Of a stretch of 64,000 nt of DNA, positions 21,255-63,484 are shown in pieces (position 1 is the first letter of the stretch; each line of letters opens with the position of its first letter). The notes under the pieces were generated by a model. It saw only the letters and a list, made by a program, of their open reading frames with translations. It had not been told where the DNA came from and did not search any database. Position numbers and translations under genes: made by a program. This DNA is from Diacronema lutheri (lineage: Eukaryota > Haptophyta > Pavlovophyceae > Pavlovales > Pavlovaceae). The DNA lies in contig JAGTXO010000058.1 of NCBI GenBank assembly GCA_019448385.1, positions 153,337-217,336 of the forward strand, written 5' to 3'.

Positions 21255-21272
21255 ACAACAAGGAGATGCTAG

Positions 21273-21303
21273 CCCCCCCCCCCCCCCCCCCACCCCCCCC
21301 CCC
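21273..21303. repeat. C-run between convergent genes
   Basis: Nineteen C, one A, then eleven C lie in the 65 bp between the stops of the FHA gene (+) and the formyltransferase gene (-). On the minus strand this is a G-run downstream of the formyltransferase. Confidence 0.95.
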
Positions 21304-21319
21304 ACTGACATGTGGGTAC

Positions 21320-22600: not shown

Positions 22601-23520
<920 letters not shown>

Positions 23521-23828
23521 GACCTGAGCGTGCGGCGGAAACAGTCTCGCATGGCACGCAGCCGCAGCGAAGGCACGGCGCGATGACGTGGAGTAACTTG
23601 TCACTCGTGGGGCACCATGAAAATCTGTAGGGGCGCAAGGTCTCGGGCCTCGGGGCAGTCGGACAGCCCGCGGATGCCGCGGAGCGAGGGGCGACCGGGC
23701 GAGGCCAAAGCGCCAGCCGCCAGTCGTTTCCCGCCACCGGCGACAAGCGCTGCACCGCACAAGGCGCACCGCCGCGGCGCAGAGCCCGCACGCGCGCTCC
23801 GCGCGCGGTGCAGCCCGCGCCGCTAATA

Positions 23829-25760: not shown

Positions 25761-25808
25761 CCGTGTCGGTCGGGTCCGGTCAAGGGTCGAGCGGCGGACG
25801 GTGCAGCA

Positions 25809-26465: not shown

Positions 26466-26546
26466 GCGTGGACAGCCACAGGCAAAATCGGTCACTGGCA
26501 CAGTGGCACTGGCACTGGTGACTCAAAAGTCACCAGCCTGCGCAGC

Positions 26547-27548: not shown

Positions 27549-28116
27549 TTTGCGTTCGTGCGACTGACGATGACGTTGACTGAGGAACCTCACTCTCTCG
27601 CTCAGTTTGACGGCCCATCGCTCAGTTTGATCGGCAAGGCGCGGAAGGTCGAGGCGGCTCGCGGCTTGCCGCGTCGGCGCAGGCATTCGTCTCAAACGTG
27701 ATGTACGTCCTGGTGATTCACATGTCTCTCACACTGACTCGACTGCCATTGAGTGAGCTGCGATGACGCTCTGGCGTGAGCAGAGCAGCGAGCGATCGGC
27801 ATGCAGACATTGCACGGTGGAGTGGCCGTCACTGGCCGAGTGGGGCACGCACACACAGGAATCCGGATGCGCTCCTCACTCGCAATGGAGCGCGAACGGA
27901 TGCGCCGGAGGGCGCGCCCATTTGGGCGCACCCACCACCTGCGCGATTCGCGAAACGATGGCGGACCATCGAGGGGCGTGGCGAGCGTGCGCACGTCAAT
28001 CCCCTCCTCCGCGCGCTCGCCGCGCGCGGACTCGCCGCGTTCTCGCGCGCGCGCGCGCGCGCAGCCGAAAGCGGCGCACCTTGGAACTCGAGATGGGGGA
28101 GGAGGGGAGTGCTCAC
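27549..28116. other. Intergenic, no gene recognised
   Basis: Moderate GC, several short near-palindromes (for example gggcgcgcccatttgggcgc at about 27911-27930). I see no tRNA, no conserved ORF and no clear repeat. It includes the promoter of PECR at its left end and the 3' flank of the F-box-like gene at its right end. Confidence 0.4.
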
Positions 28117-29625
28117 TCATGTACGAGGGTGTCGTGAGCAGCCGGGGCAGCACCGGCCACACCTGCCGTGCGCGCAGTCTTTCGCGGGGCTGTTCGAGCA
28201 GCGCCCGCCGCCCTGGCAGATGGTGTGAACGGACGAGCCACGCCGCGCGTGCAGCGCCTGCAATGCAGCCCCGTGCTCCTGGAGCTCGCGCGCCTTGCGC
28301 GCCTCGAGCGCGGCCCTGCGCTCGTGGGCCTCCGCCTGCATCGTGCCGAGCTCGGCGCGCACGGCGGCGAGCAGCGCGGCCGCGACCGCGTCGTCGTCGT
28401 CGTCCTCCTCGCGCGGCACCGACGCACCGACGCGCTCGACGAGCTCGCTGAGCTGCCACGCGTTGTGCAAGGCGTGCACGAGCGGGAAGTCGTGCTGCGC
28501 GCTCGGGTCGGTGCGCAGCTCGCGCGCGACGCGCGCCGTGCGCTGCTGCCGGCGCAGCTCGGCGATGGTGGCGGCGCGCAGCGCGGCGGCCAGCGCGTCG
28601 GGCGCGTCGGGCGCGTCGGGCGCGTCGCCGGCCACGCCCGACGCGGGTGTCGCGGCGGCGAAGCGCGCGACGAGCTTGCGCAGGTCACGCGCCGACCGGG
28701 CGGCGGGCACGTCGGGGAACTGGTCGAGCGGGGCGCTGTGCGCGCGCAGCTCGCGCGTGACCTGCGCGATCGGCGCGCGCTCGGCGAGCGCGGCGGCCAC
28801 GCGCTTCACGCCCACTTTCGAGGTGACCATGCGCGCGAAAAATGGCGCGAGTTCGTCCATGAGGCCAACGTCCTCGACGAAGGCACGCGCGTCTTCTGCC
28901 GAGTCGAAGGGCAGGTCCTTGGCGGTGATGGCATGCGCGAGCGAGGCGAGCCGCGCCGCGAGCGCGTCGTTGCGCGCGTCCGCGACGCGCGCGCGCTTCG
29001 CATTCGCCTCGTCGGCCTGCGCGAGCATGTCGGCGTCCGTCATGTTCGCGCGCGCGCGCTTGGTCGCCTCGACCTTGTCGCGCCGATCTTGCTTCTTGCG
29101 CACGCGCGCCTCGAGCGCGTCGAGGCCGCCGTGATCGGCGACGATGCGCGGGATCAGCGCGCCGTAGAAGGAGTGGTACTCGTAGCCCGTGGACCGCGAC
29201 TTGCCGCGGTGGAACGGGTAGCGCTTGAGCTGCTCCGGCTTGAGTAGGAGCATGTGCTCGAGCTCGCTCTGCACGAAGCCGGACGGGTGGTATTTGTGGG
29301 ACTTGTTCGAGCGCTTGATGCCGGCGAGCTGCGCGATCGGGTCGGGCAGGTCGCGCGCGGCCGTGGCGGCGAGGCGGCACACGCGTTGCAGGTTGATTGG
29401 CCGCTCGCCGTGCGAGCGCAGGCAGAAGCGCGCGATCATCCGGAGCAGCTCCTCGTTGCGGAAGACCGCGTCCGCCGCCGAAATGGGTGGCGAGGGCAGC
29501 GCGCCGGCCGCGCCGCCGGACTTGGTAGCGCGGGCCTTGGATCGCGAGCGTGCGGGCAGCGCGCCGGCCGCGCCGCCAGACTTGGCAGTGTGGGCCTTGG
29601 GCCGCGAGCGCGCGCGCGGCGGCAT
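28117..29625 (-). CDS. F-box-like N-terminus, coiled-coil middle, Cys-rich C-terminus (lineage repeat family, long copy)
   Basis: An intronless 502-residue gene. It starts with two copies of a 20-residue unit (RSKARATKSGGAAGALP). An F-box-like block follows: AVFRNEELLRMIARFCLRSH, INLQRVCRLAATAARDLPDP, IAQLAGIKRS. Then come a conserved FYGALIPRIVADHGGLDALE block, a Lys/Arg/Ala coiled-coil centre, and a C-terminal cysteine cluster CQGGGRC...PAKDCAHGRC plus GRCCPGCSRH that could bind zinc. A second, shortened copy lies 300 bp upstream (29923-30333) and an N-terminal fragment is at 16525-16583 (+). This is therefore a multi-copy family of this genome. Its function is not known to me; an E3-adaptor role would be a guess from the F-box-like start. 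Confidence 0.7.
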   Translation of the reverse strand: MPPRARSRPKAHTAKSGGAAGALPARSRSKARATKSGGAAGALPSPPISAADAVFRNEELLRMIARFCLRSHGERPINLQRVCRLAATAARDLPDPIAQLAGIKRSNKSHKYHPSGFVQSELEHMLLLKPEQLKRYPFHRGKSRSTGYEYHSFYGALIPRIVADHGGLDALEARVRKKQDRRDKVEATKRARANMTDADMLAQADEANAKRARVADARNDALAARLASLAHAITAKDLPFDSAEDARAFVEDVGLMDELAPFFARMVTSKVGVKRVAAALAERAPIAQVTRELRAHSAPLDQFPDVPAARSARDLRKLVARFAAATPASGVAGDAPDAPDAPDALAAALRAATIAELRRQQRTARVARELRTDPSAQHDFPLVHALHNAWQLSELVERVGASVPREEDDDDDAVAAALLAAVRAELGTMQAEAHERRAALEARKARELQEHGAALQALHARRGSSVHTICQGGGRCSNSPAKDCAHGRCGRCCPGCSRHPRT

Positions 29626-29922
29626 CGAACTGGGCTGGCGAGAGATGGAGGGGGAGGGGAGGGGGAAGTGGCCGGCCCACGAACTTTCTTTTTAAAATTA
29701 ATGTAAAATAAAAATCATTCTGGACGCCTCATCAGCCGGAGTCCGGCGCCGGACCGGCTGGTCTCCGCGCTTCACGCCCCTGCCGCGTCCTCGCCGTCGC
29801 TGTCGTCATCCCCTGCCGACGTGCACATGATTATCGCCCAGACTACTTACGCCAGACACGCTCTTTCGCTCGCTGCGTACGTCGCGCGCCTCGGCCCGGT
29901 GTACGTGACACTCCCCGACTGG
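29626..29922. other. Intergenic between family copies
   Basis: AT-rich at 29690-29716 (tttaaaattaatgtaaaata), followed by a Gly/Pro-type GC stretch with the palindrome ccggagtccggcgccggacc near 29741. No gene seen. Confidence 0.4.
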
Positions 29923-30333
29923 TCATCGGTGGCGCCTGCAGCCGATGCGAGAGCAGCATCGGCCGCACATCTTGAAGGCGCATTTGCGGGCTGGCTTGGC
30001 GAGGCAGTGGTACGAACAGACGCTCGCCGCCCACCTCGTGTCAATCGCATCGAGCCCGCCATAATCGGCGACAATCCGCGGGACGAGCGCGCCGCGAACG
30101 GAGTGTGAGAGCCACGCGTCGTTCCACGGGTGCGCGTCGAGTGCGCGGGGCTTGAGCACGAGCATGTCCTCGAGGTCGCTCTGCGCAAAGCGCGGCGGGA
30201 CGTAGCGCTTGCGCTTGCGGCGCTTGACGCCGGCGAGCTGCGCGATTGGGTCGGGCAGGCCGCGCGCGGCCGTGGCGGCGAGGCGGCACACGCGTTGCAG
30301 GTTGATTGGCCGCTCGCCGTGCGAGCGCAGGCA
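29923..30333 (-). pseudogene. Truncated second copy of the F-box-like/Cys-rich family
   Basis: The reading frame FCLRSHGERPINLQRVCRLA...GLPDPIAQLAGVKRRKR, FAQSDLEDMLVLKPRALDAH, GALVPRIVADYGGLDAID matches the long copy through its first 150 residues after the F-box start. It then jumps directly to a C-terminal cysteine cluster, CSYHCLAKPARKCAFKMCGR plus CCSRIGCRRH. The coiled-coil middle (about 300 residues) is missing. The upstream AVFRNEELLRMIAR block is also missing: homology begins abruptly at cttctgcctgcgc (30333). No ATG precedes it in frame except the internal Met of MCRLAATAARG. It could still make a 122-residue protein, but I judge it a broken copy. Confidence 0.7.
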
Positions 30334-31128
30334 GAAGCGTTGTCGTCGCGTTCGCTCAGCGCGTCGGCGAGCACGGCCCGTGCAAGCGACCGGAACACGC
30401 GGTCACGAAGACGCTCGTAATCGCCAGGGCGGATGCACCGCATGCGCTGCACAAGGCGGCGTGCCACATCGCCGACGGTGCCGTCGGCCTCGCGCCGCGC
30501 AGCCGCCAGCTCGGTCGGGAGAGTGTCTCGCTCGCCACATACTGCTGCAACGCGGCCGAGCCCGTGGCGAGCGACCGCAGCGTCTGCAGCTCAAAAGCGC
30601 GGTCGGCGGTGTTCGGCCCCTTGAGCACGGTGAAGCCGAGGGGTCGCGTTGCTCTTCGTCCAGCCCGAAGCCGCGCGCGTTGCAATGGGCGCGCGATATG
30701 ATTTCCTGAGGTGACCGTCGACAACCCGGCGGCCAACGGACACGTGCACGGCGCCATGGCGTCGCGCATGCAGCGGCAGGTGGACGTGCGCGGCAAGCTC
30801 GCGCCGCTCACGCGTGCGTTGGTGCACGGCGACGCGAGCCGCGCGGCGAATGGGCCGCTCGACTTCAACCACATGCCTACGCAGTCGCGGCGCTCGGCCA
30901 GTACGAGCGCGACAGCGCGGCGAAGGAGAGGCTGCGCACGACACTTTTGCGTAGGTGCAGGAGGCCAGCGGCACGACACAAGCGGGCCAGGTGCAGCGCG
31001 TCGCGCCAATGAGGACTCCGCCCAGCCCACGACGGGCAACGGCGACTCGATGCCCAAGAAGGTGCGGCAGGGCGGCAGGGTGCATGCAGTTTCTTGCAAA
31101 GACCCGCGCAGGCACGGAACGATTTAAT
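30334..31128 (-). pseudogene. Decayed gene fragment(s)
   Basis: On the minus strand GFTVLKGPNTADRAFELQTL RS then LATGSAALQQYVASETL reads sensibly until about 30527. There the sense continues in another frame as LPTELAAARREADGTVGDVA, then RRLVQRMRCIRPGDYERLRD and RVFRSLARAVLADALSERDD. No splice signals lie at the switch, so this looks like a frameshifted remnant. On the plus strand 30770-30955 also contains protein-like words (DVRGKLAPLTRALVHGDASR, then AYAVAALGQYERDSAAKERL in a shifted frame). I do not recognise either family. Confidence 0.45.
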
Positions 31129-34100
31129 TCAAGTCATTACGAGAGCGCGCCCCGCCTCGCGGGCGCGCGGCTCGCGCGGCGGCGCTCGCCACGTGCGCCC
31201 CCGGCGCGCGGCGCGCCACGCCCAGAGCGCGGCACCGGCGGCAGCAAGTGCAGCGCCCGCGAGCGGCAGCGGCGCGCGCGCACCGCGCGCGCCGCCGATG
31301 GCGCGCGCGGCCACGTCGGCCGTGAGGTCGCCGCGCGCGAGCCGCGCGAGCTCGGCGGCGGAAGACGGCCAGTGATCGGGCGCGTGCGGGTCGGGCGCGC
31401 ACGACGGCGCGGGCTCGCCGATGTCGCAGCAGTCCCACGCGCGCTTGGCCGACTTGACGTAGCACCATGCGCAGAAGGACCAGCGGCTGCGGCCCGCGCG
31501 CGCGCGCAGGCGGCGCGCGCGGCGCGCGCGCGCGGCGGCGGCTGAGCGCAGCGACGCGCGCACGGCGGCGGCCGGGTCCGTCGGCCGGCCGCGCGCGCGG
31601 CGCGCGCGCGCAGCCGGCGCGCGGGCGCGCGGCGCGTGGCGCACCCGGCGGAGCGGCAGTAATTGTGCGCGCCGAGTCCGGCGTACGCGTAGCGGCCGGA
31701 CTTTGCGGAGTATTCCTGTCCGGTGGCGAACGGGTCGTCCCAGCGCACGCACGGCTTGCCCGAGACCGTGCTGCGCGCGCGCGCGGCGCAGCGGCGGCGG
31801 CGGCGGCGAATTGGAAGAGCGCGTGAGCGGCCGCGGCGCGTGCGGCGGCGCGCGGCGCGTGCGGGCGCGCCTATTTTGAAAGCCGCGGTAGTCACGCGCG
31901 ATGTGTGACGTGTAACACTCGCGCCGCACGTAGAGGTGGACGAACGGCGGCGGCGGGGACGGCGGCTGCGACGGCGGCGGCGGCGGCTTGGGCGAGGGCG
32001 GCGGGCTCGGCGCGGGCGCCCAGCCGTCGCCCGCCTCGGCGCAGCCGCCGCGCTCGCGCGGCGGGCCGACGTCGCAGCAGTCCCAGCCCTTGCGCGTCGC
32101 AATATAGCACCACGCGCAATAGTAATCAAGCGAGCGGCACAGGTTGTGCGCGCCCACGCCGGCGGCGCCGCGCCGCTCGGGTGTGTACGGGTGCGCGTTG
32201 GGGAGCTGAACGTCCCAGCGCTGGCACGGCTCGCCCGTAACGGTGACGGCGACGTGGCCGCGGTAGTCACTTGCCGCGTGCGAGGTGTAACATTCTCCGT
32301 CCACACGCTGGTGCCGCGGCGGCGGCGCGGGCGACGGCGGCGGGCTCGGCGGCGCGGGCGGCGCGCGCGGCGGGCTCGGTGGGCTCGGCGGCGGGCTCGG
32401 CGCGGGCGGTGGGCGCGGCGGCAGCGGCGGCGGGCTCGGCGGCTCGAGCATCTCGCAACGGCCCATCCGCGGGCCCACGTCGCAGTAGTCCCATTCCGGC
32501 CGCTTCGGCGCGAGCGTGAAGCACCACGGGCCGGTCGCGCCGCGCTTTCCCACCGCGCGGCAAAACGGATGCGCGCCCAGACCGCCATCGTCGTCGTCAA
32601 TCGCCGCGGCGGCGGCCGCGCGCGCGCCAGCGGCGCTCGCCGCGCCGCCGCGCGGGCGCCGGCCGTGCGCGCCGCCCGCCGCGGCCGCGATCGCGGCCGC
32701 GAGCTCGGCGGGCGGGTCGTCCGACCGCGCGCCGAGGCCGCCCAGCTTGCGCGGCGTGTACGCGTGCGCGTGCGGCAGCTGCGACGACCAGCGCTGGCAC
32801 GGCCAGCCCGAGATGGTCTGCGAGACGAAGCCGCGGTAGTCCGCGCCGTTCTCCGCCGTGTAGCACTCGGCGTCGACGCGCCCGCTCGCGCTGGCGGGCG
32901 GCGAGGGCGGGATCGGCGGCGGCGAGAGCACGCGCGCGGCGAGCGAGAAGGCGTCGGGCGCGGGCGAGCCGTCGGGCCGCTTGCACGCGCGCTGCCGGTC
33001 GGCGTTTGCAAGCTCGAGCTCGACGCCGACGGTGCGATGACGGTGGGGGCCGGGCGCGCCGGCGCACTCGCCGTGCGAGTGGAGGCGCGAGAGCTGCGCG
33101 CCGCACTGCGCCGAGCAGCGGCTTTGGCGCGCGCAGTGCAGGTCGAGAAGCTCGGAGAGTTGGAGCGAGCACTCGTCGGGCTGGAGGACGCGCGGCGGCG
33201 ACGGCGGCGGCGGAGGCGCGGCGGGCGGCGACGGCGGCGGCGAGGAGAGGGGCGGCGACGGTGGCTGTGGCGAGGGCGGTGGGCTCGGGCTCGGCGGCGG
33301 CGGCCGGTTGGGCGGGCGCGGGCTCGGCGGCGGCGTGTGCGGCGCGCCAATATACGCGGCGAGGTTGTAATAGACCGACCAATCAGCGTCGACCGGCCGC
33401 GCGCCCGCGGGCGCGCACGCCGCGCACGCGCGCAGCGCCGCCGAATAGGCAAAGTAGCGCGGCGGACGCGCCGGTCGGCCCGCGAGTGCGGCGCAAGCGC
33501 CCGCGGAAGGCACGGCGCCGCGCACGCCGAGCGGCGCGGCGCTCGGCCCGCAGGAGCGGCGCGAGAAGGCAATGGCGAGGGGCGTGTCGTCGGCCGGGGG
33601 CGCGGCGCCGCCGCGAGCGCCGCCGCTTGGCACAGCGGGCGCGAACGCGGGCGCGGAAGTGGGCGCGGCGGGCGTGGGCGCAGCCGCGGCGGTGGCGCCG
33701 CCGCGCGCCGCGTCGAGCGCAGCCGCGGCGACCGTGCCGCCGTCGCGCCACGCGCCGCCGTCCGGCGCGCCGGCCGGCCGGCCGGCCGGCCCGGCGGCGC
33801 TCGCGGGCAGCCGCGCCGCCGCCGAGCCCGCGCCACGGCTCGCGTGCGCGAGCGGCGCGGCTGCGAGCGCGCGCAGCAGCCGCTCGAAGAAGCGGGTCGC
33901 TTCGGCGCCACGCAAAGCGCAGCCGGCGCGCAGGTCGACAGGGTCGGGCGCGTGCGCGCCGGCGGCGGCGGTGGCGGCGGCGGCGGCGGTGGCGGCGGAT
34001 GCGCCCGACGCGTCGAGCGGCAGCGCGAGTACGCCGCACTCGCGCAGGTGGCGCAGCAGCGCGGCGAACGTGTCGGCGCACTCGGTCGACGCGCACAGCG

Positions 34101-34476
34101 CGCCACGCGCGCCATCCGCGCCGAGCGGCGCGCCGGCAGTGATGGCGGGGTGAAGCGGCGCGGCGCACGGGTGGCAGAGCACGGCAAGCGTTGCGCCACC
34201 CAGCTCCGCGTCCGTGCACGTCGCCTCCGCCGCCGCGCGTTCGCGCAGCACGTCGTACCACGAGCGGCAGCGGTGCTCGCACAGCAGCGCGCCCGCGCCG
34301 AGCGCCGCGCCGGCGGGCGCGCCGCCCGAAGGGTCGTCGTGCGGCGCGACGCACGCGGCGTCGGCTGCAAGCCGCCGGCCGTGCGCGAGCACCGCGGCGA
34401 GCGGGCCGTCCGCCACCGGCCCTGCGAGCGCGAGGAGCGCGACCGCGCCGACGGCGACCGGGAAATGTGGCGCCAT
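31129..34476 (-). CDS. Membrane-anchored protein with three kringle domains and SPPP hinges
   Basis: Exons 31871-34476, 31645-31770 and 31129-31486 give 1029 residues. ATG at 34476 gives a signal peptide (MAPHFPVAVGAVALLALAGP). A Cys-containing Ala-rich ectodomain precedes an SPPP-type hinge (about 380-430). Kringle 1 (about 537-674) has ECYTAENGADYRGFVSQTIS, CQRWSSQLPHAHAYTP, then a 50-residue loop, then FCRAV...GPWCFT and WDYCDVGP. Kringle 2 (about 728-812) has CYTSHAASDYRGHVAVTVTG and GWDCCDVG. Kringle 3 (about 853-940) is restored only by splicing both introns. The first of these is GC-AG (AATAG|GC...GCAG|C). A C-terminal span LPLAGAALAAAGAALWAW anchors the protein. Kringles bind proteins, often through lysine. 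The Pro-rich hinges recall algal pherophorin-type wall proteins. A cell-surface adhesion role is inferred. Confidence 0.85.
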   Translation of the reverse strand: MAPHFPVAVGAVALLALAGPVADGPLAAVLAHGRRLAADAACVAPHDDPSGGAPAGAALGAGALLCEHRCRSWYDVLRERAAAEATCTDAELGGATLAVLCHPCAAPLHPAITAGAPLGADGARGALCASTECADTFAALLRHLRECGVLALPLDASGASAATAAAAATAAAGAHAPDPVDLRAGCALRGAEATRFFERLLRALAAAPLAHASRGAGSAAARLPASAAGPAGRPAGAPDGGAWRDGGTVAAAALDAARGGATAAAAPTPAAPTSAPAFAPAVPSGGARGGAAPPADDTPLAIAFSRRSCGPSAAPLGVRGAVPSAGACAALAGRPARPPRYFAYSAALRACAACAPAGARPVDADWSVYYNLAAYIGAPHTPPPSPRPPNRPPPPSPSPPPSPQPPSPPLSSPPPSPPAAPPPPPSPPRVLQPDECSLQLSELLDLHCARQSRCSAQCGAQLSRLHSHGECAGAPGPHRHRTVGVELELANADRQRACKRPDGSPAPDAFSLAARVLSPPPIPPSPPASASGRVDAECYTAENGADYRGFVSQTISGWPCQRWSSQLPHAHAYTPRKLGGLGARSDDPPAELAAAIAAAAGGAHGRRPRGGAASAAGARAAAAAAIDDDDGGLGAHPFCRAVGKRGATGPWCFTLAPKRPEWDYCDVGPRMGRCEMLEPPSPPPLPPRPPPAPSPPPSPPSPPRAPPAPPSPPPSPAPPPRHQRVDGECYTSHAASDYRGHVAVTVTGEPCQRWDVQLPNAHPYTPERRGAAGVGAHNLCRSLDYYCAWCYIATRKGWDCCDVGPPRERGGCAEAGDGWAPAPSPPPSPKPPPPPSQPPSPPPPFVHLYVRRECYTSHIARDYRGFQNRRARTRRAPPHAPRPLTRSSNSPPPPPLRRARAQHGLGQAVRALGRPVRHRTGILRKVRPLRVRRTRRAQLLPLRRVRHAPRARAPAARARRARGRPTDPAAAVRASLRSAAAARARRARRLRARAGRSRWSFCAWCYVKSAKRAWDCCDIGEPAPSCAPDPHAPDHWPSSAAELARLARGDLTADVAARAIGGARGARAPLPLAGAALAAAGAALWAWRAARRGRTWRAPPREPRAREAGRALVMT
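31771..31870 (-). other. GC-AG intron inside kringle 3
   Basis: The only donor that joins DYRGFQN to STVSGKPC with the same spacing as kringles 1 and 2 is AATAG|GCGCGCC, so the intron starts with GC. The acceptor is CGCGCAG|C; the phase (2) is consistent. Confidence 0.75.
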
Positions 34477-34665
34477 CGTTTTGGCGCGCCTTTTGTGGGC
34501 GGATTCGGCCCAGTCACGCGTTTTGCTGACCGCGGATCGGATTTCGGGGTCTAGCCGCCGGGGGCGCCCGGGGCCCCGGGCAGATCCGATCGGACCTGGC
34601 GCCATCGGGGGCGCCGTCGGGGGCGCCCGAGTGCCGCGCGGGCCGTGCACGCGTGAACCGCGCGT

Positions 34666-36164
34666 GTTACACGTCGCCAGCCGCGCATGACCTGCACGGA
34701 GCTCGCGTGGCGTCGACCGCTGCGCGGCTTGGCCGCGCGTCAACGCCGGCGGCGCTTCGGGCCGTGCGCGCTGCTGCCGCCGGCACGGGCGCTGCCGGCT
34801 CCGCGGGCGGGGCTGCGGGCGCGGGCGCTACCGCCGCCTGCGTGGGCGTCGCCTCCGCGCCCGCCGCCGCACCCGCCGCGCCCGCCGCCGCCACTGCCGC
34901 CGTCGCCGTCGCCGGCATCATCGTCGCCGTCACCGTCACCGTCACCGTCACCGTCACCGCCCTCGCAGTCGTCGCCCTCGCCGCGCACCATGCGCTCCTC
35001 ACGCTCCCACACCTCGCCGCGCGCCCACCAGGCGAGCACGAGGGCGAAGCGCTCAGGCGTCGACGTGGTGTCGCGCCCGGCCGCGTGCGCCGCCATGTCG
35101 TGCACGTCGTAGAAGATGTTGCGCGCGGCGTTGTAGTCGCGGTGCACGGGCTTCTTGCCGCCGTTGCACGTCGGGCAGATGACGAGCGCGTGCATTTGGT
35201 GCGGGTCCTGCGCGAGCCGCAGCGTCGAGCAATGCATCGACGTGTACGGCTCGGGCACGCAGACGGCCGCGACGCCGCGCCGCCGCAGCTCACGCAGCAG
35301 CCCCACCTGGAAGGCGGGCGGCGCGCCCTTGGGCTGCGCGCCCCTGTGGTCGTGCAGCCACTTGCCCACGCACACGAGCAGCCGGTCGCGCGTCACGCCG
35401 TCGACGCAGTGCGCCGCGATGAGCGCCTCGGCGACGCGCGCCGCGTGGGACCGCCCGCCGCTGTCGCGCCGCCAGCGCTCCTTCCGGCGCGCCGGCGCGT
35501 CGTACACGTGCTCGGCGGCGCGCTCGCGTACCCGCGCGCTCTCGCGGTGGAAGGCGAGGAACTCGCCCTCGCCGAGCACCTTGGCGCTGTGCGCCTCGCC
35601 AAGCCGCGCCTCGTCCGCCTCCACGCTGAACTTCTCGCCGCGCACGTTCTTGCGCACGCGCCGCCGCGCCGCGTTGGTCTTGGCCGTCTCGCGCGCAAAA
35701 CCCGCGGCGCGCGTGCACGCGCGCTGCGTGAACTGCCGCCAGACGGCCGCCCGCCCGACGTGCGCCGAGTAGGTGGTGATGTTGCCCATGTTTTGGTCGG
35801 CCGCGACGACGACCGCCTCCTCCTCATCGATCGCCCGCCGCAGCTCGGAGCCGAGCGTAATGGCGATGCGCCCGTCCGGCCGACGCCAGCGGTGCAAGAC
35901 GCTCGAGCCGCCGGCCGGCGCCTGCGCCTTCGGCACGAGGACGGTCCCGACGGCGTGCACGGCGACGCCATCCGTCACCACCGACGTGACGGGCTGCCGG
36001 CCCGGGAGCGGCACGCGCGGCAGCGGCGCGAGGCCAACCCACGAGCGCCGCGCGTGCCACGGCAGGTCGGCCGGCGGCCGCTCGCGCGCGGCGTTGTCGA
36101 AGACGCGGTTGGAGATGTCGAAGCGCGTCGCAACGACCGCGTACCTGACGCGCACGTCGCCCAT
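34666..36164 (-). CDS. Fanzor (eukaryotic TnpB-like) RNA-guided nuclease, copy 1
   Basis: The CDS is 34740-36164 (474 residues from ATG 36164); homology to copy 2 runs on downstream to about 34666. The RuvC nuclease signature is complete: VVVAADQNMGNITTYSAHVG (RuvC-I, D123), VCVGKWLHDHRGAQPKGAPP, RRRGVAAVCVPEPYTSMHCS (RuvC-II, E305), then the zinc knuckle ICPTCNGGKKPVH and RDYNAARNIF (RuvC-III, D343). The 38-residue E-to-D spacing and the GxW...TSxxC order are those of Fanzor proteins, which cut DNA guided by an omega RNA. A (GD)n acidic tail and a basic end GPKRRRR (possible nuclear signal) follow. The N-terminal recognition lobe is short, so upstream exons may be missing or unrecognised (acceptor-like CAG at about 36152). 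The first zinc Cys pair is incomplete (only C312). Confidence 0.8.
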
Positions 36165-37169
36165 CGGCGGAAACCGACGACCCCGCCCAGCCAAGGGAAT
36201 AACTCATATACGGCTTGATCATATACCCCCATACGGCTTGATCATATACGGCTTGATCATATACTGCTTGATCATATAATACTAACGACGCTTCCGACGG
36301 GTCAGGAAGTGCGGGGTCAGGAAGTGCGCAGCGAGGCGCCAGGCGAAGCAGGCCCAAAGGCCCACACGCGCCTAGCCACCGCGCGCCGCCGCCCGCGCGC
36401 CGCCGCACCGGTGGCCGCCGTCAACCACACCACCGGCCGACCCGCACGCGCACGCCGAGGCCCGAAGATCGTCGACGACGACCGCCACCCCCGAGCCGCC
36501 GCCTGCCACGTCGCCAAGCCGCCCGCCGCCGCTGCAGAGCGCGACGCCCGCCGCCAGCGAGCCGCCGCCCTCCCCGCCGCGTCGCAGCCCCCTGCCACCG
36601 CCGCGAAGCGCACCGCCACCCGCCGCCAGCGTGGCAAGCGCCGCGATGCTGGCCGCGTGGCCGCGCACGCGCGCCCCGTCGCCCCCAAACCCACCGACCG
36701 GGGCTTGATCATATACGGCTTGATCGGCTCGCCGTCGTGGTCGCGCAAGTCAAGCGGCTTGAGCCGCCCGCGCAGCTCCTTGCGCTCGTCCTGCCCGAGC
36801 GCGTTGCAGATGGCGTCCACGGTGAGGAGGCAGGCGCACGCTGCGCGGCAGCTGCGCGCAGCGCTCGGCGCGCCAGTTGGCGGGCGCGTGAGCAGCCTGC
36901 CCGCGTGGCGGCGCGTGCGGCGGCGCGCGCGCGCGCGTGGGCGCGTGGCGGCAGCAGCGCGTCGCGCGCACATTGTGCGTGCGCAGCGGCGCCACGCGGT
37001 GTTGCGACAGCCGGCAGGTGAGCGGTGTGTGCGCGAGTTGGCAGAGCAGCGCCTGCCCCTTGGCCACGTGGGCACGTTTTGCAGCTTTTTGGTCTCGCTT
37101 TTCCCCTCCGCAGCGTGCATAGAATCGTCCTTCGGACCCTCGCTGCGCGCGCCCTGCTGCGCGCTAGCC
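36165..37169. other. Upstream region of Fanzor copy 1, with AT-rich 15-bp repeats
   Basis: No complete gene is resolved. On the minus strand LLTVDAICNALGQDERKELR GRLKPLDLRDHDGEP, read in one frame at about 36715-36850 and ending in IKPYMIKP, looks like coding sequence. It could be an upstream Fanzor exon or a separate fragment. Between 36280 and 36700 the DNA is Ala/Arg-coding in every frame, with CpG-rich bias and no clear reading. Confidence 0.4.
36204..36279. repeat. 15-bp tandem repeat (catatacggcttgat), plus outlying copy at 36702-36727
   Basis: Four to five copies of catatacggcttgat, each with a TGATCA palindrome, lie just 5' of the Fanzor start; one copy has an inserted ccccc. A further 1.7 copies lie 430 bp away. 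On the minus strand the unit encodes IKPYM in one frame and YDQAV in another. Confidence 0.9.
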
Positions 37170-37961
37170 TCACGCCTCGAGCGGATGGGCGGCTGGTGGC
37201 GCAGCCGCGCCTAGCGGCGCGCCGTCAGACGCTGCCGCGGGCGTGCCGCGCGCGGCCGCCTCGGCCGCGCCCTCGGCCGTCGGCGCCGCGGCCCGTGGTG
37301 CGCGCGCGCCGCGCGCTCGGACGTGCGGCGCCTCGCCGACGTGTAGCCCGCCCTCGGCGCAGGCGAGCATGCAGTGCGCCACGTCGGCCCGCCCGATCTG
37401 CTCGTAAGGCATCGCAAAGAAGCCGAGCGCGTACTCGCCAGCCCTCCGCCGGTCGTCGAGCGACGGCGCGCGCACGCACGTCCAGCGCGCGCCTGATGCG
37501 CGCAGAATATCGAGCTGGCCGGCCGCGTCGGCGAGCTGCTCGGGCGCGACCGCAGCGACAAACGCGCGCACTAGCCGCGTGCTCAGCAGCGGAGGCGGGT
37601 CGCGCACGTCGCGCGTGGCTGCGCGGCCGAGCGCGACGACGCGGCTCACGCCGGCCGCGGCCATGGCGGCGAGGACGTTGCGCGTCGCATCGCGGAGGAG
37701 CGAGACGTCGCGCGGCTCGCCGCGCCGCGCGCCCAGCGCGAGCAGCACCACCGCGTCCGGCTCGGTGCCGGCCGGGATGGCCGCCGCGACCGCCGCCGCG
37801 TCGAGCGCGTCGCCCGGCACGACGCGCAGGCGGACGTGCCAGACGCCGTGCTGCTCGACACGGCCACGCACAAACGCGGTCACGTGGTGCCCGCGCTCGA
37901 GCGCCTGGCGCACGAGCTGCGAGCCCGTCCGCCCCGCCGCGCCAAACACGATCACGCGCAT
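37170..37961 (-). CDS. NmrA-like / biliverdin reductase B-like NAD(P)H oxidoreductase (atypical SDR)
   Basis: An intronless 263-residue gene, ATG at 37961. The N-terminal Rossmann motif is MRVIVFGAAGRTGSQLVRQA then LERGHHVTAFVR. PDAVVLLALGARRGEPRDVS, NVLAAMAAAGVSRVVALGRA and DILRASGARWTCVRAPSLDD align with BLVRB/flavin-reductase-like members of the atypical SDR family. IGRADVAHCMLACAE is the family's conserved GxxDVAxxML helix. The last 45 residues are a Pro/Ala tail. These enzymes use NADPH to reduce flavins, biliverdin or quinones, or act as redox sensors. The substrate cannot be read from the sequence. Confidence 0.85.
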   Translation of the reverse strand: MRVIVFGAAGRTGSQLVRQALERGHHVTAFVRGRVEQHGVWHVRLRVVPGDALDAAAVAAAIPAGTEPDAVVLLALGARRGEPRDVSLLRDATRNVLAAMAAAGVSRVVALGRAATRDVRDPPPLLSTRLVRAFVAAVAPEQLADAAGQLDILRASGARWTCVRAPSLDDRRRAGEYALGFFAMPYEQIGRADVAHCMLACAEGGLHVGEAPHVRARGARAPRAAAPTAEGAAEAAARGTPAAASDGAPLGAAAPPAAHPLEA

Positions 37962-38316
37962 GCCGTTCGCCGCTCAGCTTTAAAAAGCTTTTCGAGCGTG
38001 ATCGTGTTTGGACCGTTGCCGACCAAGCGATGACCGCCGCCGGGCGCTGGGGCAAGCGCTGGAGCGCTAGGCGCAACCATGCCGTGGCGCGCCTGAGCGT
38101 GGTTCTGGCATGCTGTCTATCTTCTGACGAGCCATCACACCGTGACCGCCGTCTTGCGCGTGCGGAGCCCCTCCTCAACGGCGGCACCCATCATCGACGC
38201 GTTTGCAAAAGGAACTAAAAGGAAGACGTGAGAGAAATGATGTGCGGATGCGTGCAAAGTCGCCACACACGGTCACACGGTCGCACAACACGTCCATCAG
38301 CCGATGTGCCACACGG
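37962..38316. other. Intergenic, no gene recognised
   Basis: It contains the promoter side of the NmrA-like gene (tttaaaaagctttt at 37980-37993, an AT-rich palindrome-like stretch) and a run of cacacggtcacacggtcgca at about 38263-38284. Nothing else is supported. Confidence 0.4.
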
Positions 38317-39893
38317 TCAGCCGACGGTGCGATTCGCCTCCGACCCACCGTTGCCGACGCCGGCAGAGGCAGCGGCCTCCGCGGCAAAGCGCCGGCATCC
38401 TGCCTTGTGCACGGGCCACATGCGCCGCTCGCACTCAACGCCGCAAAACTTGGCTACGCGGCACTTGCTGCACACCTTGAGCTTCTTGGTCTGGCCGCAG
38501 CCGATGCAGCACGCGCGCACAACCTCGCGCTTGCCTGCATGCTCGCCCAGCAGCGCAAGCGCAGCGTCGCGTTCGGCCATGTCTTCGCGCTGCTGGGCGG
38601 CGCGCGCGAGGAGGAGCGCGCCCTCGCGCTGCTGCGTGCGGTCGCCGCCAGCGCCAGGGTCGGTGGTGATGAGCCATTTGCCTAGGCAAATGATGGCGTG
38701 CACGTGTCCCTGAGAGGCGGCGAGGCGGTAGAGGCGCGCGGCCTCCGCCAGGTCCCGTGCCACGCCTTCGCCATTCTCGTAGCAGATGCCCAGGTTGCAC
38801 TGCGCGCCGGAATGCTTCTGCTCGGCGGCGAGGCGGAAGAGGCGGACGGCCTCCGCCAGGTCCCGCGCCACGCCTTCGCCCCTCGCGTAGCTGACGCCCA
38901 GCTCGAGCTGCGCGTCGGCATTATTCTGCTCGGCGGCGAGGCGGAAAAGGCGGACGGCCTCCGCCCAGTCCTGCGGCACGCCGTCGCCATTCGCGTAGCA
39001 GAGGCCCAGCTCGAGCTGCGCGTCGGCGTTCTTCTGCTCGGCGGCGAGGCGGAAAAGGCGGACGGCCTCCGCCCAGTCTTGCGGCACGCCTTTGCCCCTC
39101 GCGTAGCAGAGGCCCAGCTCGAGCTGCGCTTCGGCGTTCTTCTGCTCGGCGGCGAGGCGGAAAAGGCGGACGGCGCCCAGTCCTGCGGCACGCCTTCGCC
39201 CATCGCGTAGCGGACGCCCAGGCTGTACTGCGCGCTTTCTTGGTTCTGCTCGGCGGCGAGGCGGAAAAGGCGCACGGCCTCCACCCAGTCCTGCGCCACA
39301 CCTGCGCCCGTCTCATAGCAAATGCCCAGGTTGCACTGCGCGCCGGAATGCTTCTGCTCGGCGGCGAGGCGTAAGAGGCGCACGGCCTCCACCTGGTCCT
39401 GCACCACGCCTTCGCCCCTCACGTAGCAGACGCCCAGCTCGAGCTGCGCTTCGGCATTATTCTGCTCGGCGGCGAGGCGGAAGAGGCGGACGGCCTCCGC
39501 CCAGTCTTGCGGCACGCCTTTGCCCCTCGCGTAGCAGAGGCCCAGCTCGAGCTGCGCGCCGGCGTGATTCTGCTCGGCGGCGAGGCGGAAGAGTCGCACG
39601 GCCTCCGCCCTGTCCTCCACCACGCCTTCGCCATTCGCGTAGCAGAGGCCCAGGTTGCATTGCGCGCCGGAATGCTTCTGCATGGCGGCGAGGCGGAAGA
39701 GGCGCACGGCCTCCGCCCAGTCCTGCAGCACGCATTCGCCCCTCACGTAGCAGACGCCCAGGTCGAACTGCGCTTCGGCATTATTCTGCTCGGCGGCGAG
39801 GCGGCAGAGGCGCACGGCCTCCGCCCAGTCTTGCGCCACGCTGTCGCCCCGCATGTGGCGGTGAGACCGCGCCTTCGATTTTGCCTTCGCCAT
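38317..39893 (-). pseudogene. Sel1-repeat (SEL1-like TPR) protein with C-terminal MYND finger, frameshifted
   Basis: From ATG at 39893 (MAKAKSKARSHRHMRGDSVA) the frame carries Sel1 repeats of 36 residues (QDWAEAVRLFRLAAEQ...GLCYANGEG). At about 39174 the expected cggcctccgcccag is cggcgcccag: four bases (ctcc) are missing in repeat 7 of 11. The remaining repeats and the C terminus continue in another frame to 38317. The C terminus is a MYND zinc finger: CIGCGQTKKLKVCSKCRVAK then FCGVECERRMWPVHKAGC, with all eight ligands. Sel1-MYND proteins are protein-interaction adaptors; MYND binds Pro-rich partners. Either the gene is newly broken or this is a sequence error in a repetitive tract. All other repeats are intact. 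Confidence 0.85.
38740..39850 (-). repeat. 108-bp tandem repeat coding Sel1 units
   Basis: Eleven 36-codon units lie head to tail with high nucleotide identity, suggesting recent unequal exchange. One unit carries the 4-bp deletion. Confidence 0.9.
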
Positions 39894-58221: not shown

Positions 58222-58925
58222 GTAGCCCCGGCGGCCCACATTGCGCACGTGTCGTCGCGGCCGGCGCGCACATAGAATTGCGGGCACACGAGGCGGGCGC
58301 AGACGCTCCGCGTGCCGATTGACGCGCCGTCCGAATCCAAGGCGTGCGGATGCGCGTCTGTGGGCCGGCGTTGCGTGCTGTCGGCGCGGGTCGCCGCCGC
58401 ACGACGAGAAATACTTTCATCCTCTCCCCGACCCGCAGGGGCAATGCGCGTGCGCGCCAGCGCGCCGGCAGCGTGGCATGCCACGGCCGCGGCGAGCGCG
58501 TCCCCGCCAGTCTGCCGCTTGCTCGGCGCCCCGTCACGCGCTTCGCGCGCGCGGCCCGCTGCGTCCGCGTGCATGAGCGCACTGGCAGCGCGCGCATTAT
58601 GGCCTGGGCAAGATCGCTCCGCGCTCGCGCCGCCGTCGCGTCGCCCCATGGCGTCCGGCCCGGCCGTCCGCGCCGTTCTCGGGCAATGCCGCACCGCCGT
58701 TTTTGAAAAACGGATGCCGCCATCCATCCAGTTCTCCGAGCCGCCTCCGCGTGGGCGTCCGACCGGTGCGAGAAGCGGCTCGCGTCTCCGCGCGGGCGCG
58801 CCTCCTCGCCGGGCGCCCGCCGCACGCTCGTCTTCCCACGCCACCGCGCTGCTCCGCGCTTAACCCCCGCTTGCCCCTTCCCCCCTCTTCTCTGCTGCGC
58901 AGCCCGCCGTGCCAGCAGCGCGCGC
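58222..58925. other. Intergenic, no gene recognised
   Basis: Both strands have long open frames, but composition is Arg/Ala/Pro-rich and no family motif is seen. 58660-58740 is less GC-rich (tttttgaaaaacggatgccg). Confidence 0.4.
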
Positions 58926-61900
58926 ATGAGGCGTGCACGACCCAGCGCCTGGAACAAGTTTTGGGCCGTCGGGCGGCCACCAGTGGGGAGCGAGGGCATC
59001 GGCCCGAAAATGCCCGACATGCCGCGTGGTGAGTGCCTGCACGGCTTGCCGGCTTTGGCGCTCGGCCAGTCGGCGCGCAGTCCTCACTCGACCCCCTCGA
59101 AAACCTTGCGTGCGCACCCCGCACACCCGGCGCTGCGCGGCGCGGCGCAGGCGTGGAAAACGAGGGCAACACGCGCTTTTTGAACGCCCTCGTGCAATCG
59201 CTCGCCGCCTTGGACGTGCTCCGTGCGATGCCCCGCTCCGCTTCGCGCCGTGCCAAGAGAGTCGAGAAAGCGCTCTTTCGGGACTTTGACACGCTGCTCG
59301 AGGATACTCAGCCCGCCGCCGAGCCCGCCGTCGCGCAGCGCGGCATCCAGCCCGCCGCCCCGGCGCTGCTCGCGTGGGCGGGCGACGCGGCTGCGCTCCG
59401 GCTGGCCGATGCCGCCGCACGCGCCGGCATCGCGCAGGCAGAGGTGGACTGCATCGCGGGCGGCGACATGCTCGCCTCCACCGTCGACGCGTGCTGCGAG
59501 GTCGTGCTGCGCGTGCACGGACAGGCCGGCGAAGGGCGCGTCTGCTACGTGCCGCTTGCCGCACAGCCCGCGGTGTTCCAGGACGGCGCCGAGCGCGCCG
59601 CGCTGCTGCACCGCCTGCGCAGCGAGGCGACGACGCAGGCGGTCATCGGCATGTGGAGCCCGCCGGGCGGGCGCGGCGGTGCGGGCAGTGACGACGGCAC
59701 GCAGCCCGCCTCCGGCCATTTTACCGCATTGCGCCTTGTGCGCGTCGCGCGCACGGGCGAGCATCGTTACGATGCGGTGCTCATCGACACGCTCGCGTCG
59801 CCGAGCAGGCAGGCGCTCAAGCGTGCCAGGGCGATAACCGCCACGCTGCACGCGGCGGGCCTCGACGTCTTGCCCGTGCGCCGCGCGCGGCTGCTCGACA
59901 AGGCGGCACAGCGTGGTGCGACGTGCGGCCTCGCGATAGTGGGCGCGCTCAACGACGCGCTCGCCGCGGCAGGCTGCGCGTCCGCGCCGCGCACGTTCAG
60001 CGTGGCGGACATGTACGCTGTTGGCGAGCGCCTCCGCGTCGCGCTGACCGGCGCGACCAGCAGGCGTGCGCCGAGCGGCGCCTGCGCCGGCGCGGGCGCG
60101 GTGCGCGGCGGAGGCAGCCGCGATCGCCCCAAACCGCCGCGGCAGGCGCGTGGCGCGACGGCCGCCGCAGACGCCGCCGTCGCGCCCGGCGCGCCGCTGC
60201 TGTCGCCTGCCGCGCCGCCGCCCGCCGCCGCGCCACCGCCGCTGCCACCGCTGCCGCCACCGCCGCCGCCACCGACGCCACCGGCGGCGCTCGGCCGCCG
60301 GCAGCACGTCGGCGGTGGCGGCAGCGCGGCGAGCCGGCGGCTGGCGGACGTTGAACGGCGGCAGCGCGGCGTGCGCGCGACGCCGCCCGCCGCGCGCTTC
60401 CTCGCCACGCTGCCGCCACCGCCAAGCGCCGGCCTCGCGCGCACTGAGCGAGCAGGCGCGCGCGGAGCGCAACGCGGACGGCCGGCCGGCGCACACGCGC
60501 GCGGCCAACGCGCGCGCCTTCTACCGCGGCGTGGAGCTCGGCATGCACGCGACGCGCGCCATCGTCGACGCGCGCCACGCCGACCTCCCGCAGGCCGTGT
60601 TCGTGGCGGAGGCGCGGGCGATCGTCGCGCGCTGCGCCGGCGGCGGCGTGCTGCTCGCGCCGGACGACGTGCGCGACCTGTGCGACGCGCAGACGGACGC
60701 CGATCGCGCTGCGATCTGGGCGTCGGTGGGCGCGCACGAGGCGACGCGCATCTTTGCGCTCGTCACGCGCAACGCGAGCTTGGCGGGCGCGGCGCTGCTC
60801 GTGCTGCACGCGCCGGCGGACGCGCCGGCGCGCGCGCTTGGGCTCGTGGCGACGCGCTCGCGCGCGCCGTCGACGGGCGCGCCGCGCGACGCGCACGGGG
60901 CGCTGGTGCAGCGGTTGGACGTGCTGACGGGCGCGATCGCCGCGGCGCGAGGCGCGCCGCCGCTCGAGCTCGAGCTCGCGCTCGCGCCCGAGCCGCAGAG
61001 CACGTGCAACGCGCGTGCGGCCGCGCTGCTCTGTCTGCAGGCCGTCGCGGACGCGAGCGACCGCCCCACCGCTGAGCACGCGCTGGCCTCGCTTGATGAC
61101 GCGCGGGGCATCGACCGGCACTGCCACGCCGTCCGGCAGCAGATCGAGGCGGAGCTCGAGTGGCGGCGCGCTGACGGCGCCGACGGCGACGACGGCGCGC
61201 CCGCGCTTGCGCCTGCCGCCGTCCCGCCGGCGTGTGCGCCGGCGCACGCTGCCGGCGTGGCTGAAGTCGACCAGGCGATCGTCGCGCGGGTGCGCGACGC
61301 GCTGCGCGCGTGGGCGACGACTGGCACCGCGCCCAGCGCGGCGCTGCTCGACGACGCCTGCGCCGCGTACACGGCGCGCGCACGCACGCGCCAAGACGCG
61401 CGCACGGCGCTGGGCCCGACGCGCGCGGCCGAGCTGCTCGCCGCGGCCGCGCGCGGCGGAGCCGACGGTGCGGATGCCGCGCGCGCACTGCTCGGCGCCG
61501 CGCCGCGCCTGCTCGTCGTGCTCCTCTGCGTGCCCGTCGCCGCGCCGTCCGGCGAGCCACCGCGCCTGGTCGGGCTGCTCGTCGCCGACCGGCCGACGGA
61601 CAGCTCGCGCCCGGCCGCGCTCGTGCGCTACGACTTTGCGCCGCTCGACGAGGACGTGGCCGTCGCGGTCGGCGCCCATGCCGTCGCGCTGGCCGGTGCG
61701 ATCTGGCCGCTGCTCGCGGCCGAGGGGGAGCCGCAGCCATCGCCCGTCGTGCGCTCGCAGCCGCGCGGCGGCGACGATGGCGCGCGTGCGCTCGCAACGT
61801 TCGCGTGCCTCGACGCGCTGATGACCGCCAGCGTCGGCGCGCACGGCCTCGCGGGCGGTGCGGGCATGCTGCCCGCGCTGGTCGCGCGAGGCACCGCGGC

Positions 61901-63011
61901 CGCCCAGCGCGAGCGGCAGCTGCGCGCGGCCGCCGAGCGGCTGGGCGGCACGGTCGTTGGGTGGCCGGACACGGGCGCGAGCGCGGCGGGCGCGAGCGTT
62001 GACGAGGAGGCTGGCTCGAGCGTCCTGCACCGCTGGCGCCGGCCGGACGGGCGCATCGCCATCGCGCTCGGCTCCGAGCTGCGGCGGGCGATCGATGAGG
62101 AGGAGGCGGTCATCGTCGCAGCCGACCAAAACATGGGCAATATCACCACCTATTCCGCGCACGTCGGGCGCGCGGCCGTCTGGCGGCAGTTCACGCAGCG
62201 CGCGTGCACGCGCGCCGCGGGTTTTGCGCGCGAGACGGCTAAGGCCAGCGCGGCGCGCGTCGCCGAGGCGCTCATCGCGGCGCACTGCGTCGACGGCGTG
62301 ACGCGCGACCGGCTGCTCGTCTGCGTGGGCAAGTGGCTGCACGACCACAGGGGCGCGCAGACCGAGGGCGCGCCGCCCGCCTTCCACGTGGGGCTGCTGC
62401 GCGAGCTGCGGCGGCGCGGCGTCGCGGCCGTCTTCGTGCCCGAGCCGTACACTTCGATGCATTGCTCGACGCTGCGGCTCGCGCAGGACCCGCACCAAAT
62501 GCACGCGCTCGTCATCTGCCCGACGTGCAACGGCGGCAAGAAGCCCGTGCACCGCGACTACAACGCCGCGCGCAACATCTTCTACGACGTGCACGACATG
62601 GCGGCGCACGCGGCCGGGCGCGACACCACGTCGACGCCTGAGCGCTTCGCCCTCGTGCTCGCCTGGTGGGCGCGCGGCGAGGTGTGGGAGCTCGAGGAGC
62701 GCATGGTGCGCGGCGAAGGCGACGACTGCGACGACGAGAGCGACGGTGACGGCGACGGCGACGACTATGAGGGCGGCGACGGCGACGGCGACGTCGACGG
62801 GGACGGTGACGGTGACGGCGGCGGCGGCGACGACGGCGACGGCGGCGGTGGCGGGCATGGCGACGGCGGAGGCAGGCGCGGCGGCGGCGGCGGGCGCCGC
62901 GGCGGCGGCGGTGGCGGCGGCGGCGCTCGCGCCCGCACCCCCTCCCGCAGAGCTGCCGGCGCCGGTGCCGGCGGCGGCAGCGCGCGGGGGCCGAAGCACG
63001 GCCGGCGTTGA
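58926..63011 (+). CDS. Chimera: USP-like (Cys-to-Arg) protein fused to Fanzor nuclease half, copy 2
   Basis: Exons 58926-59028, 59151-60370 and 60456-63011 join in phase (1, then 0): 1292 residues. Splicing restores PDMPRGVENEGNTRFLNALV QSL, the Cys box of ubiquitin-specific proteases, but with Arg at the catalytic Cys. SGHFTALRLVRVARTGEHRY resembles the His box. A Pro-rich linker follows, then two further regions with weak mutual similarity (ALLVLHAPADAPARALGLVA; LVVLLCVPVAAPSGEPPRLV). At about residue 960 the sequence becomes nearly identical to Fanzor copy 1 from GSSVLHRWRRPDGRIAI on: VIVAADQNMGNITTYSAHVG, VFVPEPYTSMHCSTL, ICPTCNGGKKPVHRDYNAAR. All three RuvC acidic residues remain. About 76 residues after FARETAK are deleted relative to copy 1. 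Whether this fusion is expressed or is an in-frame insertion scar is open. Confidence 0.7.
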
Positions 63012-63088
63012 CGCACGGCCGAGCCGCGCAGCAGTGGACGCTATGCGGGCTCTGCCCAAGTCGCGCGCAGCTGGCGACGCGTGCCGCG
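62013..63088 (+). mobile_element. Fanzor-bearing duplicated block (inverted relative to 34666-35912)
   Basis: Nucleotide identity to the minus-strand block 34666-35912 starts abruptly at ggctcgagcgtc and continues through the stop codon for about another 80 bp (ending near gctggcgacg). Substitutions are few and mostly third-position. No terminal repeats or target duplications are evident, so the ends of a transposon were not located. Confidence 0.75.
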
Positions 63089-63484
63089 CGCCGCACGCCC
63101 GTGCGCGCCGCCGCCCGTGGCCGAGCGCGCCGCATCAGCCGGCCCGCTGCAACCACCGTTTGGATCACGGACGCTTGCAACAGCTCATCGGTGCGCGTCA
63201 TCTGCGCTGGCGGCCACGGCGACGTCCGTTCCGACCTTGTCTCGACAAGCTCGCGCGGTGCTCGCGGCCCCCACGCCGCCGCAGGCACGCTGCACGCCGT
63301 TCTGCAAAGTTACAGGGTTGTTAGGGTTGTAAGGGTTGTATGGGTTGCAAGGGTAGAAGTAAGAGTTAGGGTTAGTAGTCTGGGCGAACGCAAAGGGAGC
63401 GTTTCGCGACAAACCTGGCCAGGCCGATCGATAAAGTAGACCTCGGGGACACCTGGCTCCAATTTTGAGCGACTTTGGCCTGGT
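63012..63484. other. Subtelomeric region with degenerate telomere-like motifs
   Basis: 63313-63376 holds scattered gggttgt/gggttag words (agggttgttagggttgtaag). No gene is seen. GC falls towards the end. Confidence 0.6.

Follow-up and report, generated by a model that had tools for sequence, protein, structure and literature searches.

The locus on the minus strand at positions 34,740 to 36,203 of the analysed stretch of Diacronema lutheri DNA (the window, 64,000 bp, C49:153337-217336) raises the question of whether this haptophyte carries a gene for a Fanzor-type RNA-guided nuclease there, as the original prediction held. Judged by its sequence, the locus is a copy, now dead, of a Fanzor-like nuclease gene that belongs to an unclassified giant element. 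The window as a whole probably holds two dead remnants of one such D. lutheri element, whose Fanzor-like protein would be the C-terminal part of a very long frame and would act as an RNA-guided DNA endonuclease aiding copy-back. The genome searched comprises 43,492,796 bp in 103 contigs (C1, C2 and so on). The assembly of D. lutheri NIVA-4/92 has 73.25% G+C and 22.9% repeats, the annotated ones being mainly LTR and LINE, and the stem 'transpos' does not occur in the accessible text of the genome paper (PMC8379373).

The minus-strand open frame 36203-34740 encodes 487 amino acids and represents the RuvC half of a Fanzor-like remnant, here called copy 1. Numbered from the first methionine, motif comparison places the RuvC-I aspartate D123 in DQNMGN (35796..35798), the alternative RuvC-II glutamate E305 in EPYTSMHC (35250..35252) and the RuvC-III aspartate D343 in VHRDYNAARN (35136..35138), all on the minus strand and exactly where they had been predicted. 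A profile search, which had been proposed as a check, gave 31.7 bits for PF07282 (Cas12f1-like_TNB) against a curated cut-off of 26.3; together with the D...E-x2-TSxxC...RD order and the position of the alternative glutamate, this supports a RuvC protein of the TnpB/Fanzor lineage. Searched against its own genome, the protein of copy 1 gave 169 matches (from 411 candidates, of which 88 were scored), and the frame is therefore not a chance ORF.

For comparison, 20 paralogues with their flanks were taken from the genome. The 3' end they share has a sharp border, with ...GATTTGGCTTGACCATCTATAC giving way to unrelated DNA, and is exact in 18 of the 20 loci; of the remaining two, one differs by a single substitution and the other breaks off earlier. 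The 5' end was found by walking upstream along two copies, which gave an element of 31,056 bp for the copy on C82. The full-length copies on C9 and C82 are 99.62% identical over 31,069 columns. Exact patterns located 169 5' ends and 193 3' ends genome-wide. With up to three mismatches allowed, the whole genome contains 232 RuvC-III, 230 RuvC-I, 235 chromodomain and 204 PIF1 sites, while control patterns (read backwards) gave 0 sites. The TNB domain occurs in bacterial TnpB too, and assembly contamination could in principle have brought in such a gene. The distribution of about 230 copies across contigs refutes this explanation, whose probability is negligible; the assembly also has TTAGGG repeats at several contig ends (e.g. 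C15, C29 and C30), and the gene has a GT-AG intron and a chromodomain in the same frame.

Pairing of the ends on contigs C1-C47 (89 of the 169 5' ends and 97 of the 193 3' ends) gave 59 complete copies with a summed length of 1.65 Mb, most of them falling into distinct size classes near 21.6, 26.3, 29.2 and 31.0 kb. By extrapolation, the element family would occupy roughly a tenth of the genome if the other copies are alike. One C2 copy lacks about 8.5 kb (element ~11368-19910), including ORF1. On contigs C1-C42 (78 listed 5' ends, 86 listed 3' ends), 53 copies had both exact ends paired. Counting exact sites only, among the first 100 of 232 (RuvC-III), 235 (chromodomain) and 204 (PIF1), the RuvC-III site was present in all 53 and the chromodomain site in 52, and a PIF1 site was listed in 32. 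By class, listed PIF1 sites were found in 22/22 copies of about 31.0 kb, 5/7 of about 26.3 kb, 0/10 of about 21.6 kb, 0/7 of about 29.2 kb and 5/7 of the others. Because the lists hold exact sites only, a missing PIF1 site may be diverged and need not be lost, and the counts give no basis for a loss of PIF1 in whole size classes. Nearness to the 3' end may alone explain why the Fanzor-like gene is kept in the paired copies.

A complete 31-kb copy lies at C49:118967-150027, about 3.3 kb ahead of the window start. Nine contig ends fall within 2 nt of the element 3' terminus, namely the first bases of C1, C5, C6, C10 and C12 and the last bases of C3, C8, C14 and C32. Two more, on C26 and C29, are within about 14 nt of it, and C32 and C72 start at, or a few nt from, the element 5' terminus. 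Such contig ends could mean that the assembler trimmed at repeat borders, or that the element also exists as free linear copies.

Among the genes of the element the Fanzor-like one comes last. Its recognition half, in the ORF2 frame, ends with ...RYNVAPLRTHN at element position 28798. Next comes a phase 0 GT-AG intron (128 nt), after which exon 2 takes up the reading at 28927 with VPRNVRLAAS.... The same splice is present in the NCBI protein KFE25_006464, which derives from another copy (...PLRTHNVPRNVRL...). The Fanzor-like part with its N-terminal half has about 750 residues (758 amino acids in the spliced protein). In fuller copies the frames follow in the order lambda/RecE-type exonuclease, chromodomain, recognition half, intron, RuvC half and acidic tail. 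The short recognition lobe reported from copy 1 is thus an artefact, since the upstream exon joined by the 128-nt intron supplies the N-terminal half, some 290 extra residues in fuller copies. The annotated gene KFE25_006464 (C69, P0002) combines about 107 amino acids of the Fanzor-like recognition half with SAM domains; it could be a fusion gene of the host, or else the gene model may wrongly span a truncated copy.

The motifs of exon 2 are highly conserved, with ADPNMGN and EPYTSMHC in 20/20 paralogues and VHRDYNAARN in 19/20, the diverged paralogue L024 reading RDYDAARN with the aspartate kept. Exon 2 is free of stops in 18 of the 20; stops in the other two mean that some near-identical copies are already broken. 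Selection on the family is weakly shown, the copies being too young for a selection test to carry weight. The four cysteines of the family zinc ribbon are C364, C378, C404 and C407, with a spread first pair (C-x13-C).

The accessible text of Bao and Jurka (PMC3627910) gives the pattern of the Fanzor/TnpB lineage as D-X(125,275)-[TS][TS]-X-X-C4 zinc finger-X(5,50)-RD. Family exon 2 agrees with this pattern (D175, T360-S361, C364/C378/C404/C407, R416-D417), and copy 1, with three cysteines, departs from it. According to the available portion of PMC10711439, a DPG motif in RuvC-I is near exclusive to Fanzors, and a second fingerprint is an alternative glutamate six residues upstream of the zinc finger, the canonical site having no glutamate. 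The alternative glutamate is found in 20/20 paralogues and in copy 1 (E357-PYTSMH-C364 in family numbering), and the strand taken as canonical, chosen by eye with no structure, reads LLVCVGKW and has no E or D. The RuvC-I motif is DPN in all 20 paralogues and DQN in copy 1, and since DPN stands in place of DPG the family is named Fanzor-like and not certified as Fanzor.

For PF07282, one paralogue (L013) gave 28.4 bits, above 26.3, and the diverged L024 gave 23.8 bits, below it. The NCBIfam TnpB model NF040570, with a cut-off of 100, gave 14.5 and 15.5 bits (15.5 for copy 1), and phmmer against PDB returned only non-significant matches to Cas12f1 (E 0.21 for copy 1, and 0.35). An AlphaFold model of exon 2 only, computed without depth, has a mean pLDDT of 36.3, too low for the fold to be read. 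Rfam over 1.4 kb of the element 3' end gave one chance-level match and no guide RNA. The weak profile scores, this result for the guide RNA, the DPN motif and the spread cysteine pair would suit a RuvC-fold relic that has lost its RNA function and works within a polyprotein as an ordinary nuclease or binding protein. However, the amplified copies read retain the three catalytic residues, the four cysteines and the N-terminal half, and such a relic is considered unlikely.

Homologue searches with the spliced 758-aa protein, both whole and as residues 600-725, yielded a total of two proteins: the first carries the name D. lutheri, and the second is an ENA protein 99% identical to the family. A scan of viral contigs gave no relative, and a viral scan for a DEYRTSK-like Fanzor motif gave no match. 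It is plausible that the Fanzor-like family is an undescribed subgroup.

Copy 1 itself is not intact, as shown by a 548-bp insertion and by its partial coverage of the element. It spans only element positions 28694-30747 of 31056, so that both element ends are missing, including the final 309 bp. Alignment shows that the insertion (36171..36718) splits the gene, parting the RuvC half from a minus-strand remnant of the N-terminal half at 36719..37070, which comprises the last part of exon 1, the intron and the first part of exon 2 (element 28694-29052, 81% identical). At the other end of copy 1, 34644..34984 on the minus strand contains the acidic/glycine-rich tail and the beginning of the 3' non-coding part. 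The insertion contains tandem AT-rich 15-mers (ATACGGCTTGATCAT; alignment, TRF) and is bordered by them. The AT-rich 15-bp repeat that had been noted upstream of copy 1 is present (36231-36278, TRF score 89), but it belongs to the insertion that broke the gene. Within the insertion, at 36212-36264 and 36702-36716, there are four GGCTTGATCATATAC copies which are similar to the last 17 nt at the 3' terminus of the giant element (GGCTTGACCATCTATAC) and look like tandemly repeated ends of a related element.

The zinc ribbon of copy 1 has 17 bp in place of the 83 bp of the family (35195..35211, minus strand). Because of this deletion of 22 codons relative to the paralogues, which includes the second of the four cysteines (C378), the zinc element described in the original prediction as a zinc knuckle is incomplete.

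The remaining RuvC block (35212-36170) has 959 bp without indels and is 95.9% identical to the C82 copy. The lack of indels in this block and the presence of D, E and D in copy 1 could indicate that the host has retained copy 1 as a short nuclease gene. The 39 substitutions relative to the C82 copy are however evenly spread over the codon positions (12/13/14), and 23 of the codon changes are non-synonymous against 11 synonymous. In addition, the zinc ribbon is disrupted, the insertion and a +7 shift relative to the family upstream of the RuvC block sever the N-terminal half, and both element ends are missing. Retention by the host is on this evidence highly improbable. Some of the substitutions in copy 1 are also found in other subfamilies, and the substitution pattern is therefore to be read as a lack of constraint and not as a date. 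A TnpB/Fanzor-lineage protein of an algal transposable element is supported, but the designation as an RNA-guided nuclease gene is not supported for copy 1, which is truncated, interrupted, broken in its zinc ribbon and without codon-position bias in its substitutions. The divergence from the C82 copy differs within copy 1, with identities of 81.0% at 36719-37070 and 95.9% at 35212-36170; the former part includes the intron, and a mosaic origin or gene conversion is possible.

The second remnant in the window, copy 2, lies on the plus strand at 58289..63300 and is an internally deleted remnant of the same element. It aligns to element 6750-30940 in seven blocks, 77-95% identical, with large internal deletions, and includes Fanzor-like fragments at 62009..62482 (plus strand; element 29335-29589 and 29798-30035). 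A subtelomeric (GGGTGA)n array occupies 63485-63994 at the contig end; ahead of it, a short way past the broken 3' end of copy 2 (~63300), there are degenerate TTAGGG-like repeats. The (GGGTGA)n pattern has 1482 matches in the genome; the 100 matches listed are on C5, C9, C11 and C17, near contig ends at least on C5, C9 and C17. The neighbouring minus-strand frames at 31129-34827, 37170-37973 and 38317-39312 are, from their motif shapes, presumably host genes for a kringle-repeat protein, an NmrA-like oxidoreductase and a Sel1-repeat/MYND protein.

In the C82 copy of the element, Pfam identified a PIF1 helicase in two frames (element ~3369-5780; PF05970 87 bits, PF21530 48.9 bits) and a UCH protease (element 6872-8365, 33.5 bits). 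ORF1 (element 11731-15765) is without a Pfam match. ORF2 (element 15428-28966) has 4513 codons and, in profile scans, contains a lambda/RecE-type exonuclease and a chromodomain. The exonuclease matches RecE-like phrog_434 with 57.3 bits (E 3e-15); its matches to TIGR03033 (lambda-exonuclease, 25.1 bits) and PF09588 (15.8 bits) do not reach the respective cut-offs. The chromodomain matches PF00385 with 48.6 bits, above the cut-off. Along ORF1, ORF2 and exon 2, most values of third-position G+C lie between 0.85 and 0.98, with a minimum of 0.76, which is a coding signature; the first 2.9 kb of the element are flat and lack this signature. The chance of 4513 open codons at the composition of the element is about 1e-18 if independence is assumed. 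A homologue search with the helicase returned a near-identical ENA protein and one distant PIF1. Motif shapes might hint at an Ulp1-like protease and PD-(D/E)XK-like motifs in ORF1/ORF2 and at an ssDNA-binding-like N-terminus of the helicase frame, but Pfam gave none of these. No transposase, Rep, integrase, reverse transcriptase, capsid or polymerase was found with Pfam in the named ORFs and twelve other frames, scans in which ~8.4-11.7 kb and the minus strand beyond ~8 kb were partly or wholly uncovered and which genes split by introns could escape.

The insertion sites were compared for 22 insertions with both flanks read, including those on C82 and C9, one 3' flank being only 1 nt. A target duplication of 12 bp was found in one of them, and in the other 21 any duplication was at most 5 bp, as in shuffled pairs. 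No terminal inverted or direct repeat above chance was found, the longest exact inverted match between the first 60 and the last 100 nt being 6 nt. Nor did the whole assembly contain a head-to-tail (circular or tandem) junction with a 3' end followed by a 5' end within 6 nt. This insertion pattern fits rolling-circle-like, recombinase-like and break-copy mechanisms alike.

The PIF1-family helicase (PF05970), the lack of terminal inverted repeats, the lack of target duplication in 21 of 22 insertions, as in the shuffled control, and the Fanzor1 already described within Helitron2 in the available part of PMC3627910 are all in keeping with a Helitron-like rolling-circle element moved by Rep/helicase. 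The Fanzor-like gene would then be passive cargo that contributes at most to copy retention. Several results speak against this. The HUH Rep domain (PF14214, Helitron_like_N) is not found in the scanned frames of the element; its sole genomic match is at C63:35738, and no element 5' end is on C63 among the matches listed, which follow contig order as far as C69. An HUH motif scan in all six frames gave two unconvincing strings. The 3' end of the element is ...CTATAC and not CTRR, and its hairpin is no better than in shuffles (z -0.67; 5' end z -1.72). There is also no asymmetric terminal inverted repeat of Helitron2 length. With neither HUH Rep nor Helitron ends found, the assignment to Helitrons was rejected, and rolling-circle transport of a passive gene is retained as a rival explanation that is doubtful but still deserves weight.

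The single insertion with a 12-bp duplication (C9:2907804; flanks L055, L075) sits in CTATATACGG, which is nearly the first ten bases of the element. By eye, insertions recur beside ...AAGCGYCGTTAGTA...-like repeats (C4:227k, C8:74k, C4:1097k, C29:137k and C36:903k), and a similar sequence is found in the window insertion at ~36275. These repeats are possibly a preferred AT-rich target in a GC-rich genome.

Giant eukaryotic transposons such as Terminons, Starships, Teratorn and Polintons are tens of kb long and carry many accessory enzymes, as does the D. lutheri element. It differs from them in that Pfam scans of most, though not all, of its frames gave no reverse transcriptase, tyrosine recombinase, DDE transposase, capsid or type B polymerase. 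In the accessible text of PMC3627910, Helitron2 CRe-1, 2 and 3 of Chlamydomonas share with it an algal host, a high copy number, a multi-exon Fanzor gene and the absence of target duplication for insertions complete at the 5' end. In contrast to these, the D. lutheri element is 31 kb long and itself encodes PIF1, UCH, exonuclease and chromodomain, and the terminal inverted repeats and HUH Rep of Helitron2 were not found in it (scanned frames). There is also a close likeness to Fanzor1 (SpuFz1 and others), as far as described in the available parts of PMC10432273, PMC3627910 and PMC10711439: the order of RuvC D...E-x2-TSxxC...zinc ribbon...RD with the alternative glutamate, a domain of about 750 amino acids with an N-terminal half, and a eukaryotic mobile element as carrier. 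By analogy, RNA guidance would be expected for the D. lutheri protein. Unlike Fanzor1, this protein has DPN for DPG and a spread first cysteine pair, and it belongs to a 31-kb element in which a chromodomain and an exonuclease are encoded in the same frame.

In the accessible text, the words Diacronema and Pavlova are absent from PMC10711439 and PMC10432273, and chromodomain is absent from PMC10711439 and PMC3627910. Among the matches listed, no paper describing the D. lutheri family was recognised by its title or abstract opening (subscription papers and supplements being outside the scope). PMC10820777 (Fanzor and haptophyte) and PMC6338049 and PMC11071296 (both Fanzor and chromodomain) are unrelated, as far as their available portions go.

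The homology with Fanzor, as characterised in the accessible part of PMC10432273, leads to the expectation that a working protein of the family would bind an RNA derived from the end of the element and cleave DNA matching the flank. Under the preferred reading of an endonuclease that aids copy-back, the Fanzor-like protein would use an RNA made up of the element 3' end and the flank and would cut the matching empty site, with the result that the element would be copied back and kept. The chromodomain may tether the protein to chromatin, the two being a putative fusion read from one shared frame, and PIF1 and the exonuclease would process the break. A more far-reaching version, which we regard as improbable, is an element with no separate transposase, in which the chromatin-tethered RNA-guided RuvC nuclease would itself open the target, and exonuclease and PIF1 would drive break-induced copying of the 31-kb unit.

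The window illustrates how the reading of a single copy misleads: copy 1 is dead, the lobe is not short and the upstream repeat belongs to the insertion that splits the gene. For the question of what Fanzors do for the elements that carry them, a young family with about 230 gene copies in a compact genome of 43.5 Mb constitutes a rich natural series. The discrete size classes, together with the presence of the gene in 53/53 paired copies, make the family suited to asking whether spread or retention needs the gene. If a transcript confirms the link to the chromodomain, the protein would be a natural chromatin-tethered RNA-guided nuclease, and the more far-reaching version, if true, would make the element a transposase-free RNA-guided giant mobile element.
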